Positions 7,606-11,799 of a stretch of 38,961 nt of DNA are shown piece by piece (within the stretch, counting starts at the first letter, position 1; each line of letters opens with the position of its first letter). Location of the stretch: positions 1 to 38,961 of the forward strand of contig NZ_SPHL01000013.1 in NCBI RefSeq assembly GCF_005844425.1, given 5' to 3'. The notes beneath the pieces are model-generated. The model had not been told where the DNA came from. It made no database searches and was given only the letters and a program-made list of their open reading frames with translations. Position numbers and translations under genes: made by a program. The stretch comes from Anaerofustis stercorihominis. Its GTDB lineage: Bacteria; Bacillota; Clostridia; Eubacteriales; Anaerofustaceae.

Positions 7606-8535
7606 CTAATCTTCTCTTTCAAGTGCTTTTAATTCTTCATCCAAATGTTCTTCTATTTCATCATGTTTTGAATGGTTAGGACAATTTTTATTGTCACATT
7701 CTTTATTGTTACAATGTTTTTTCTTTCTCTTTAAAACTTTTACTTCATCGTTTTTATATTCTTTAAAAGCAATATCTCCATCATTTTCAAATTTAACAAG
7801 TAAAGTTTCTTTTAATACGTTTAGTCTTTCTATTGTACCAACACCATCTTCGGTTTTAACTTTATCAGAAACTCTTGGTAGTCTTGAAAGAGCATCTTCA
7901 TAGCAATTATGCTCATATTGAAGACAACAAAGAAGTCTTCCGCATATTCCCGAAATTTTTGAAGGATTAAGAGATAAACCTTGTTCTTTTGCCATTTTTA
8001 TTGAAACAGGTTGGAATTCTCCAAGCCATTTATTACAACAAAGTTCACAACCACAAGGTCCAAGCCCTCCAAGTATTTTGGATTCGTCTCTTACACCTAT
8101 TTGTCTAAGTTCAATTCTAATTCTAAATATAGCAGCTAAATTTTTTACAAGTTCTCTAAAATCAATTCTGCCGTCTGCTGTAAAATAAAAAATTACCTTT
8201 TGAGCATTAAATGTATATTCTGCTCTTATTAGCTTCATATCAAGACCTTGTTTAGCTATTTCTTTTTTACAAATTTCCAAAGCTTTTTCAGCTTTAACAA
8301 GATTTTCTTCGTGAATTTTTGTATCTTTTGCTGTTGCTTTTCTTATTACCGGTTTTATAGGTTTTGTTACTTCTTCATCTTCAACATATTTAACCTTACC
8401 GGCAACAGTCCCATATTCGAGACCTCTTGCTGTTTCAACAATAACATTATCCTGTAATTTTAAATAAATATTTTCAGGATCAAAATAATATATCTTACCT
8501 GCGGGTTTAAATCTTACCCCCACTACTTTTTGCAT
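7606..8535 (-). CDS. ricT: RicT (YaaT), PSP1-domain iron-sulfur protein
   Basis: 309 residues. The PSP1 domain carries the conserved cysteine clusters GPCGCELCC (C161, C163, C166, C167) and ICGRLLCC (C198, C203, C204), which in B. subtilis RicT bind [4Fe-4S] clusters in the RicA-RicF-RicT complex. That complex stimulates RNase Y mRNA maturation and affects sporulation and competence. The ATG overlaps the holB stop (TAATG). Unlike the roughly 275-residue B. subtilis protein, this one has a Lys-rich, cysteine-rich tail (C275, C280, C285, then H288 and H291) and an acidic end. No ricA or ricF is in the window. Confidence 0.92.
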   Translation of the reverse strand: MQKVVGVRFKPAGKIYYFDPENIYLKLQDNVIVETARGLEYGTVAGKVKYVEDEEVTKPIKPVIRKATAKDTKIHEENLVKAEKALEICKKEIAKQGLDMKLIRAEYTFNAQKVIFYFTADGRIDFRELVKNLAAIFRIRIELRQIGVRDESKILGGLGPCGCELCCNKWLGEFQPVSIKMAKEQGLSLNPSKISGICGRLLCCLQYEHNCYEDALSRLPRVSDKVKTEDGVGTIERLNVLKETLLVKFENDGDIAFKEYKNDEVKVLKRKKKHCNNKECDNKNCPNHSKHDEIEEHLDEELKALERED

Positions 8536-9404
8536 TAAATATCCTCCTCAATATACATAAATAAACTTAAAAATGCCAATGAGGCATTAACATTATAATT
8601 AATCATTAAGTTTATGTTTAACATTTTATCAATGATTTTTTTTAATTTGTGTTTTGTAACAAGTTTATTTACTTCTTTAACATAATTTTTATAATTATTT
8701 TTATCTTCATTAAAAGTAATATCCAAGTTGCTTTCCTTATATATTAACACATCTGATAAAAATTTCATTATAAAAACTGCATAATTTTCAACTTTATTTC
8801 TATCCTTTACAAGTTTTTTGCTAATATTTACATTATTTAAGTTATTTCCTTTAAATATAGAAAGTAAATTTTCAAGCAAATATGTTTTTTCTTCATCAGA
8901 AAGAGTAGCATTTTCATTACTGTCATTTACCTTTATTTCTATACACCTTGAAAGAATAGTTGGTAAAATCATTTCTTTTTTTGAAGAAGATAATATTATA
9001 ATTGTATCTTTTACAGGCTCTTCCAATGTTTTTAAAAATGCATTAGCGGCTTCAACAGTCATAGCATCAGCACAATGAACAACAAAAATATTATATTTGT
9101 ATTCACTGCTTGAAAGAGAAACTTTATACTGCATCTGTCTTATCTGCTTTATTTTTATGCTTGCACCGTCTTTATAAATATGAGTAATATCTATATTATT
9201 ATTTGTATTTATTTTTAAGCACTCATCGCATTCATCACAATAATACCTACTGTTTTTACAATACAATGTTTTTAAAAATTCTAATATAGTATTATCTAAA
9301 ATTTCTTCTTTTGCACCATAAAACAAATAGGCGTGAGCCATAGTATCATTATTTATATGATTTAACAAAATATCTTTTTCGGTTTTTAATAAATTACCAA
9401 ACAT
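8535..9404 (-). CDS. holB: DNA polymerase III delta' subunit (clamp loader)
   Basis: 289-residue AAA+ clamp-loader protein. It has a zinc-binding cysteine set (C49, C56, C59, C62) and the sensor/arginine-finger sequence LSRCIEI. It has no intact Walker A (the position reads FYGAKEE), as is normal for delta', which does not hydrolyse ATP. It helps load the beta clamp on DNA. It starts two bases after the tmk-darA stop and its own stop overlaps the ricT start. The C-terminal third is very Lys/Asn-rich and diverged. This is the conserved holB position of the B. subtilis yaaO-tmk-yaaQ-yaaR-holB-yaaT cluster; no yaaR is found here. Confidence 0.88.
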   Translation of the reverse strand: MFGNLLKTEKDILLNHINNDTMAHAYLFYGAKEEILDNTILEFLKTLYCKNSRYYCDECDECLKINTNNNIDITHIYKDGASIKIKQIRQMQYKVSLSSSEYKYNIFVVHCADAMTVEAANAFLKTLEEPVKDTIIILSSSKKEMILPTILSRCIEIKVNDSNENATLSDEEKTYLLENLLSIFKGNNLNNVNISKKLVKDRNKVENYAVFIMKFLSDVLIYKESNLDITFNEDKNNYKNYVKEVNKLVTKHKLKKIIDKMLNINLMINYNVNASLAFLSLFMYIEEDI

Positions 9405-9406
9405 AA

Positions 9407-9736
9407 TTAATATTTTTCAAATCTGGCAACATCTAAGATAAATACAGTTGCCCCTCCAACTTCAACGCTTGCAGAATAAGTAGTAAGAGGACTTTCCATA
9501 AATGAAGCATCAACAGGAGTAGAAACAACCTGTTCTCTTTTTTTACATATTTTTTTCATTATTTCAAGAGCTCTTTCAACCTTTTCATCTTCTGTTCCTA
9601 TCATCAATGTAACATTTTTTAGTTTTAGAAATCCGCCCATTGTACTTAGTTTAGTTACTTGGTAACCTTCATCTGTAAGCGCATCCGATAAAATAAATGC
9701 ATCTTCATTTTGAACAATCGCTATTATTAATTTCAT
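9407..9736 (-). CDS. darA: Possible independently translated DarA (PstA/YaaQ), c-di-AMP receptor
   Basis: The in-frame ATG at 9736 gives exactly 109 residues, the length of B. subtilis DarA and S. aureus PstA. It lies seven bases after a perfect AGGAGG (9749-9744). Family features are complete from this Met onward: N-terminal beta strand MKLIIAIVQ, T28, GGF at 34-36, N41, and the C-terminal EVGGATVFILDVARF. DarA is a trimeric P-II-like protein that binds cyclic di-AMP; its downstream target is not settled. If used, this start would yield free DarA alongside the Tmk-DarA fusion. Internal initiation is inferred from the SD and was not shown. Confidence 0.6.
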   Translation of the reverse strand: MKLIIAIVQNEDAFILSDALTDEGYQVTKLSTMGGFLKLKNVTLMIGTEDEKVERALEIMKKICKKREQVVSTPVDASFMESPLTTYSASVEVGGATVFILDVARFEKY

Positions 9737-10423
9737 TGTATTACCTCCTAAATTATTTTTAATTCTTTTGTATAAATCATTATTAATTTCTTCAATACTT
9801 TTTAATTTATTATCCTCTACACATTCAATTCTTTCAAAACCGTAATTTTTTATAAGAAAATTTACATTTTCATAAGCAGACATTAAATATTCAAAATTAC
9901 TTTCGTGAATATCTTTTTCATGCTCATTTGTAAATTTATTATCTCTGTCTTTTATAAGTTTTTGAGAAACTTTAGGGTCAATATCCAAGAAAAATATTTT
10001 ATCAGGAGTAGGAATTTTAAACATATTATATTCATAATCCAACAGCCAATTTAAAAATTCTTCTCTTTTCTTTATATCTTTTATTTTACAACCTTGATGA
10101 AGCATATTTGAAGTTACATATCTGTCTGCAATAATTATTCCACCATTATTATAAAATTCTTCATAATCCTTTTTATATGTTGCATATCTATCAACGGCAT
10201 AAAATGTAGAAGCAACCTTTGGGTCTATATCTTCTGCATTACTTCCAAAATCACCGTTCAAATACATTTTCACCAAAGCTGAAGAATCACTTTCATAATT
10301 GGGATAACTTGCCCTTAAAACATTGTATCCTTCTTCTTTTAGTCTTTTAACTAAAAGTTCACTTTGTGTTTGCTTTCCACTTCCATCAAGCCCTTCTATT
10401 ACAAATAGTTTTCCCTTAGCCAT
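9407..10423 (-). CDS. tmk-darA: Thymidylate kinase fused in frame to c-di-AMP receptor DarA (PstA)
   Basis: 338 residues. Residues 1 to about 222 are a dTMP kinase of the longer clostridial type: P-loop GLDGSGKQTQ (11-20), DRYAT, and ADRYVTSN. It makes dTDP for DNA synthesis. Residues 230-338 match the whole 109-residue P-II-like DarA/PstA/YaaQ family from its own Met: MKLIIAIVQ, GGFL, N41, and EVGGATVF near the end. The two are separate adjacent genes in B. subtilis (tmk, yaaQ). Here no stop codon separates them. The linker RIKNNLGGNT is the translated intergenic sequence, including an intact SD, and depends on a five-A run at 9756-9760. The start overlaps the upstream decarboxylase stop (TAATG). 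It may be a real fusion, a recent indel or a sequencing slip. Confidence 0.88.
   Translation of the reverse strand: MAKGKLFVIEGLDGSGKQTQSELLVKRLKEEGYNVLRASYPNYESDSSALVKMYLNGDFGSNAEDIDPKVASTFYAVDRYATYKKDYEEFYNNGGIIIADRYVTSNMLHQGCKIKDIKKREEFLNWLLDYEYNMFKIPTPDKIFFLDIDPKVSQKLIKDRDNKFTNEHEKDIHESNFEYLMSAYENVNFLIKNYGFERIECVEDNKLKSIEEINNDLYKRIKNNLGGNTMKLIIAIVQNEDAFILSDALTDEGYQVTKLSTMGGFLKLKNVTLMIGTEDEKVERALEIMKKICKKREQVVSTPVDASFMESPLTTYSASVEVGGATVFILDVARFEKY
9736..9763 (-). promoter_or_regulatory. Internal ribosome-binding site and A5 frame switch at the tmk/darA junction
   Basis: The minus strand reads AAAAA (9760-9756), then TAATTTAGGAGG and a seven-base spacer to ATG at 9736. With five A the frame stays open into darA. 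With four A the kinase would stop at the TAG that overlaps the SD; with six A it would stop at an immediate TAA. The same TAGGAG stop/SD overlap exists at the ricT/EIIC and EIIC/thrC junctions, so the four-A form is the likely ancestral layout. Confidence 0.7.
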
Positions 10424-11799
10424 TATTTCTCCTTAATAACATTTATAAATTCATTTTCTATTCCTAGAATCGTTTGTTTATCTTTTATTTCTTTTATATA
10501 ATCTATTATTTCCTTATTAATTATTTCCCCTGGAGTAAGTATAGGATATCCTGGAGGATAAGGAACTATAAAATCATAGCTTACACTTCCTAAACTATCA
10601 TCTATTTCTACTCTTTTCTTTTCAAAAGATAAAGTTTTTCTCATAGAATATTTTATTATAGGTTCACTATGTTTAAAAATAATATCCCGTTTTTTGCTTA
10701 CATTAGTTTTATATTTTTTATTGATATCTTTTAATGCACTAATTAAACTATCAATATCACTTTTTTTACTAAGCAGTCCAAGATATACCAAAACATATTT
10801 TTCTGTTGAACATTCTGTAAATATATCATAATTATTCTCCAGTATTTCTGATAATGAATAACCATCAAAACCAGTATTATCAACACCTATACATAATTTT
10901 GTATAATCATGAATATCACTATTAAATTCTTCCAAATAAAAATTTGTATTTTCTTCTATCTCTTTTTTTGCACCAGTATACCATTCTTTTATTTGACTTA
11001 ATATACTTTCTCCTTTTTCTTCTGCAAAGGATACCGCTTCTTCTACACTTTGCAAAAACAAAAATGAAGGAGATGTTGAAGTTGTCATCTTGAAAAATAA
11101 TTTCAACCTTTGAATATCAATTATATCACTGTTTATATGTAAAAGTGAAGTTTGAGTTAATCCAGATAGTGTCTTATGCATAGATGTAATTACAATATCA
11201 CTCTGTGCGGTAAGTGCTGAAGCAGGATATTCCTTACTAAAAGAAAAGTGCGCTCCATGAGCCTCATCTACAATTATTATAATTTCTCTATTTATTTCTT
11301 TTATTCTTCTACATAAACTTTTTATATCAATTGAATATCCAAAATAACTTGGATATGTTATAAATACTGCTTTTATATCTTTATTTTTATTTAATGCAGA
11401 TATATATTCTTCTTCACTTATTCCAATATCATTATTCTTTGGATAAATATAAATAGGATTAGCATCACTTAAATATAAACCATAATATGATGAAATATGA
11501 CTATTTCTTGGAATCAATATTTTATCATTTTCTTTTAAGGAATATAAAATGGAACTTATAATCCCTCCTGTGCTTCCATTTACTAAAATAAAAGAATATT
11601 TTGTATTAAAAATATCAGATATTTTATTTTGTAAATTTAGAATAACATCATTGGGGGATAATAAATTATCATTAAATGAAAGTTCTGTTAAATCTTTTAA
11701 ATAAAAATCATTTATTCTTCCTTTATGTCCCGGCATATGAAGTCTTACGGGATTTTTATGTATATATGTTCTTATTCTTTCATTAAGTTCTTTTTTCAT
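10423..11799 (-). CDS. Orn/Lys/Arg decarboxylase family PLP enzyme (YaaO-like)
   Basis: 458 residues, the short form of the family. The N-terminal MPGHKG motif (22-27), DEAHGAH (178-184) and the Schiff-base lysine K209 in ITSMHKTLSG are all present, followed by the small C-terminal domain with PYPPGYPILTPGE. Family members decarboxylate arginine, lysine or ornithine to polyamines or diamines; the substrate cannot be read from sequence. It is the first gene of the operon, as yaaO precedes tmk in B. subtilis. The stop overlaps the tmk start (TAATG). The start ATG at 11799 follows AAAGG and five bases. Confidence 0.9.
   Translation of the reverse strand: MKKELNERIRTYIHKNPVRLHMPGHKGRINDFYLKDLTELSFNDNLLSPNDVILNLQNKISDIFNTKYSFILVNGSTGGIISSILYSLKENDKILIPRNSHISSYYGLYLSDANPIYIYPKNNDIGISEEEYISALNKNKDIKAVFITYPSYFGYSIDIKSLCRRIKEINREIIIIVDEAHGAHFSFSKEYPASALTAQSDIVITSMHKTLSGLTQTSLLHINSDIIDIQRLKLFFKMTTSTSPSFLFLQSVEEAVSFAEEKGESILSQIKEWYTGAKKEIEENTNFYLEEFNSDIHDYTKLCIGVDNTGFDGYSLSEILENNYDIFTECSTEKYVLVYLGLLSKKSDIDSLISALKDINKKYKTNVSKKRDIIFKHSEPIIKYSMRKTLSFEKKRVEIDDSLGSVSYDFIVPYPPGYPILTPGEIINKEIIDYIKEIKDKQTILGIENEFINVIKEK

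Follow-up and report, generated by a model that had tools for sequence, protein, structure and literature searches.

In the window, i.e. the whole stretch of 38,961 nucleotides of Anaerofustis stercorihominis DNA that we analysed, the genes of thymidylate kinase (tmk) and of the c-di-AMP receptor DarA (darA, also called pstA) are read in one open frame, which is most likely a young stop-loss fusion of a common operon. We consider it probable that a loss of the tmk stop, at the level of the species or of the strain, leads to a Tmk-DarA protein made from the sole PF02223 gene found in the genome, together with free DarA, and that this state is tolerated and not selected. The case has the look of a minor accident in a widespread operon and not of a new signalling device. 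DarA/PstA is described, in the excerpt of PMC7900238, as a c-di-AMP receptor of unknown function. If the fusion were truly fixed in the species, it would offer a ready test of whether Tmk and DarA work together. If it is a mere stop-loss accident, it points to a kinase, probably essential, that can bear a C-terminal receptor, and to a DarA that either copes with a kinase at its N-terminus or avoids it through internal initiation.

The fused frame and its joint

The open frame at 9407-10423 of the minus strand contains 338 codons and comprises a thymidylate kinase part followed by a DarA/PstA part. Its features are the following:

9407..10423, minus strand: fused frame tmk-darA, 338 codons
9749..10423, minus strand: 225 codons of thymidylate kinase, with 81% identity to residues 1-225 of the 227-residue Tmk of the congener G002 (tblastn)
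9756..9760, minus strand: run of five A, within the part of the tmk tail that lacks one base relative to both congeners
9744..9749, minus strand: AGGAGG, the darA ribosome-binding site, with 7 bases between its end and the darA ATG
9737..9748, minus strand: joint, four codons (G G N T) derived from the darA ribosome-binding site and the spacer
9407..9736, minus strand: darA, 109 residues and a stop, with its own ATG (PF06153, 124.9 bits)

Each part is recognized by a Pfam model, Thymidylate_kin (PF02223) at residues 9-202 (4.3e-24, 85.7 bits) and CdAMP_rec (PF06153) at residues 230-337 (1.5e-35, 122.1 bits), both above their cut-off of 27. Each part covers almost the full length of its family model, so the frame is more than a chance run-on. 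The original prediction, that a single frame of 338 codons joins a dTMP kinase to a 109-residue DarA, is thus confirmed by the open frame and by the Pfam domains. The scores of the whole 338-residue product stay below the cut-offs of the NCBIfam equivalogs, both for thymidylate kinase (TIGR00041, 79.7 against 83.25; NF005923, 98.1 against 193) and for DarA (NF058593, 120 against 140).

The codons over the joint read GGA GGT AAT ACA ATG and then run into DarA, and the two remaining frames across it both contain stops. As had been proposed, the linker is translated former intergenic DNA, in which AGGAGG stands at seven bases from the ATG of DarA, and the A-run at 9756-9760 does count five bases in the window sequence.

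The operon and the closest relatives

The frame lies in a tight cluster with the gene order decarboxylase-like, tmk, darA, holB-like and ricT, in which neighbours share one base or sit two bases apart. The genes around the fused frame are:

10423..11799, minus strand: Orn/Lys/Arg decarboxylase-like gene, upstream, sharing one base with the tmk start; its matches are weak, below the NCBIfam cut-offs
8535..9404, minus strand: holB-like gene (DNA polymerase III delta'), beginning 2 bases past the darA stop; best match 141.2 bits against a cut-off of 180.6
7606..8535, minus strand: ricT/yaaT, 310.2 bits against a cut-off of 70

By eye, no clear ribosome-binding site precedes holB at 9404, which starts 2 bases past the darA stop, and this arrangement suggests that its translation may be coupled to that of darA. 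In B. subtilis, the tmk-darA operon continues with holB-yaaT as well. The order decarboxylase-like, tmk, darA is that of the conserved tmk-darA (yaaQ/pstA) operon of Gram-positive bacteria, from which the window differs in that its tmk has no stop of its own and reads into darA. According to the excerpt of PMC4475381, a paper on Listeria PstA, six named species invariably have pstA and the thymidylate kinase gene together in an operon, and a decarboxylase gene is part of it in several.

The junction was compared with that of two genomes of the same genus, G001 (taken as Anaerofustis stercorihominis DSM 28733, L005) and G002. The closest named relative, Anaerofustis stercorihominis DSM 28733, has 79% identity in the best segment and is matched over query residues 1-338. 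Both congeners have the same genes as the window, in the same order and with the same internal AGGAGG (DarA 90-91% and Tmk 79-81% identical), but in both the tmk stop is present, and tmk and darA are separate genes. They are separate as well in G003, from the same family. The Tmk of G001 and G002 ends in DLRR-stop, so that AGGAGG codes both arginines and the stop comes directly after it, 5 bases ahead of an ATG-ATG of darA. In the junction alignment, the stretch from the conserved end of Tmk to AGGAGG is one base shorter in the window than in both congeners, and which base is missing from the tmk tail cannot be distinguished. Because of this shorter stretch, the frame misses the tmk stop and enters DarA. 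Beyond AGGAGG, the spacer too is shorter in the window than in the congeners, by four alignment columns. The in-frame state depends on this second difference as well, which contributes to the shared frame and may be older and harmless. The need for such a second, perhaps older, change of length counts against the stop-loss explanation.

We propose that a one-base change of length in the non-conserved tail of tmk would have shifted the frame past its usual stop and into darA, so that the stop found directly after AGGAGG in the sister species would be bypassed. Without this stop, a ribosome that finishes tmk would make Tmk-DarA, of about 38 kDa, and free DarA, of about 12 kDa, would be made through internal initiation at its own AGGAGG and ATG. 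The ribosome-binding site and the ATG are intact, which upholds the earlier suggestion that one mRNA could give both the fusion and free DarA. The fused frame would have no obvious way to provide free Tmk. A profile search of the window genome returned a single PF02223 match, inside the fused frame. With no other PF02223 gene found, the dTMP kinase activity would have to be carried by the fusion, which likely has it.

How rare is the fusion?

DarA was found in 10 of the 67 genomes of the order, in 198 of the 391 sampled from the class and in 201 of the 398 sampled from the phylum, and these samples together hold 396 different DarA genomes (hand count). The class and phylum surveys each used the best 150 matches (hand count), followed by a new search of the genomes below those, which matched in 47 of 47 and 45 of 45 cases. 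The frame of the best DarA match was seen in each of the 396 genomes (hand count), one of these matches, in G122, being below the family cut-off. The DarA frames of at least 190 aa over the family cut-off were read singly, and so was the frame of G129 (161 aa). Outside the survey lie the weak matches below the cut-off (G122, G235, G100), the frames of 150-190 aa other than that of G129, which are too short for a whole Tmk, the second DarA copies below the matches listed and the genes cut by contig ends.

With the long frames read singly, DarA stands in one frame with Tmk in 1 of the 396 DarA genomes, solely the window's own. A conserved Tmk-DarA fusion family would be defined by a second species with this joint, and none was found among them, and the search that had been suggested, for long DarA proteins with an N-terminal kinase in relatives, gave none beyond the window in this set. 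As the 396 DarA genomes hold no other Tmk-DarA frame, there is no sign of selection for the fusion.

The long DarA frames that proved not to be Tmk-DarA frames are those of G761 (505 aa), G607 (372 and 197), G541 (321), G671 (296 and 266), G732 (284), G765 (260 and 217), G714 (246), G391 (222), G147 (219), G137 (205), G811 (200), G706 (199), G600 (194), G623 (193) and G129 (161). A Tmk match adjoins DarA at 8 of these loci, always in another frame, and the other long-frame loci have no Tmk match within the stretch fetched. All nine other DarA genomes of the order have a same-strand Tmk match just upstream of darA, with its own stop and with a spacing that goes from an overlap of 4 bases to a gap of 83 bases.

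A related-locus search of genome contigs for a second strain returned A. stercorihominis and two Tmk relatives (40-41% identity), and the junction pattern had 0 matches in viral contigs. The fusion is not named in the titles or the abstract starts of the papers listed, and the excerpt of PMC4475381 speaks of an operon, not of a fusion. A further comparison is with a thymidylate enzyme fusion of the Perigonia lusca nucleopolyhedrovirus, which, from the excerpt of PMC4895240, is presumably a dTMP kinase joined to another domain; its partner and the kind of organism both differ from those of the window.

The DarA part and its c-di-AMP site

Residues 1-107 of DarA align to Listeria Lmo2692 without a gap, and the window DarA matches six PDB sequences of PstA/DarA. 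It keeps the GGFL and GGA motifs of these PII-like c-di-AMP receptors (PDB 4rle, 4d3g/4d3h, 4rww, 4wk1), but differs from the known DarA/PstA in that it carries an N-terminal kinase, and from S. aureus PstA at residues 24, 26 and 108. The excerpt of PMC4316997 names residues 24, 26, 28, 36, 37, 41, 47, 99 and 108 at the c-di-AMP site of S. aureus PstA. In the alignment, 6 of these 9 are kept in the window DarA (T28, F36, L37, N41, G47 and F99), and the three others differ, in the same way in the window and in both congeners. Listeria PstA departs from the S. aureus residue at position 26 too (excerpt of PMC4475381), and K108 is found in L004, L008 and L011 too. The window genome has one diadenylate cyclase match.

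An AlphaFold2 model of the fusion, built on a five-row alignment with two DarA rows, has a mean pLDDT of 74.4 and a pTM of 0.66. In the Tmk part, 20 of the 22 ten-residue blocks have a pLDDT of 75-95 and the other two have 48 and 69, and the DarA part is poor, with residues 294-338 below 50. The last Tmk helix is placed at 210-225 and is followed by four residues and then by the first DarA strand, at 230-238. For S. aureus PstA with an N-terminal His tag (13.9 kDa), a complex of 43.9 kDa is described, which amounts to about three chains (excerpt of PMC4316997), so that a short N-terminal addition is tolerated.

Real change or assembly error

The window genome, 2.03 Mb in 85 contigs, has a completeness rating of 100% and a single full-length 16S match. 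We compared about 0.73 Mb of it with 1.2 Mb of G002. None of the 350 G002 genes with a homologue is broken in the window genome, in a count that would miss errors within the last few codons, where the length change of tmk lies. An earlier round of this comparison had flagged 1 of 327 genes as broken, on contig C15, and this candidate was set aside, as the gene spans a run of Ns. This run (G000:C15:271-393) interrupts a gene whose G002 homologue encodes 816 residues and looks, by eye, like an ATPase, and it marks the window genome as a scaffolded draft. The two genomes share 168 tight gene pairs on the same strand, of which two scored as fused in the window genome, tmk-darA and one on contig C1. 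The latter turned out to be a single gene, whole in the window genome and frame-broken in G002 by a length change. We take this gene, by eye, to be glmS. In G002 (C5, 1130478-1132308 of the joined stretch) it lies in two frames, through a sequencing error or a real break, which means that such breaks occur in deposited genomes. The reverse comparison, of 346 genes, found two breaks in G002, at the two loci that had scored as fused, and no fusion among 168 pairs.

The two genomes share 343 reciprocal-best pairs, with 298,455 aligned coding bases. The ends are alike in 218 pairs; in 25 the unaligned tails are equally long, in another 80 they differ within 20 residues, and in the last 20, among them tmk-darA, they are longer. 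In this count, short overlapping ORFs were kept in and the ends of local alignments add to the tails. Protein ends thus vary often, whereas broken frames are rare, and this makes a real change more probable than an error.

Alternative explanations

An indel of the assembly or of the sequencing would mean that the organism has separate tmk and darA genes and that the fusion is in the record alone. This is the main rival account of the fused frame, possible but not favoured given that none of the 350 compared genes is broken, and we hold it rather unlikely. It would fit with the separate genes of both congeners, with a lost stop that needs a single base beside a run of five A, with the comparable break of the apparent glmS in a congener record, and with the draft state of the genome, whose 85 contigs include at least one that holds a run of Ns, the species being represented by one genome in the comparison. 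Over the roughly 298,000 coding bases aligned, however, the rule of three bounds such errors near 1e-5 per base, a bound of about 0.06 over the 168 tight pairs if some 35 sensitive bases are assumed in each. A run of five bases is also short for read errors. The same run could let the polymerase or the ribosome slip, so that free Tmk, free DarA and the fusion would all be made, as stops lie nearby in both other frames. This is the least probable account, since the A-run is short and no X-XXY-YYZ heptamer, the motif of slippage, was found by eye in the reading frame.

The original prediction had gone further than a lost stop, with mixed assemblies of dimeric Tmk and trimeric DarA that would tether dTDP synthesis to c-di-AMP. 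We find this unsupported, as the congeners have separate genes, none of the 395 other DarA genomes has the fusion and one missing base in a non-conserved tail can explain the lost stop. A selected device, in which the fusion ties the dTMP kinase to c-di-AMP sensing and DarA acts as a regulatory domain of Tmk, is very unlikely, even if the invariable operon of the six named species (excerpt of PMC4475381), the one diadenylate cyclase match and the 6 of 9 site residues kept speak for it. As the function of DarA is called unknown (excerpt of PMC7900238), a natural fusion would also hint at its partner. The device is at odds with the single occurrence among 396 DarA genomes and the absence from both congeners, with a joint made of four residues of a former ribosome-binding site and spacer behind which darA keeps its own start, and with the changes at residues 24, 26 and 108, which both congeners share. 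For a kinase-receptor signalling device, there is no support beyond the conserved operon. It is extremely unlikely that the species has fixed Tmk-DarA as its sole dTMP kinase, that c-di-AMP on DarA alters the kinase activity and that Tmk is the partner of DarA. Found once and dependent on one base, the fusion gives weak evidence for a DarA partnership.

Further observations on DarA

The distribution of DarA is patchy, with 10 of the 67 genomes of the order and 4 of the 13 of the family having it. In several Clostridia (G236, G251, G346, G362, G394, G078 and G111), two matches to the DarA family follow each other in tandem, no more than about 20 bases apart, the second one being weaker. Two other DarA matches, G471:C23:4739-5053 and G787:C1:2196811-2197134, contain in-frame stops (four TAA; one TAG).
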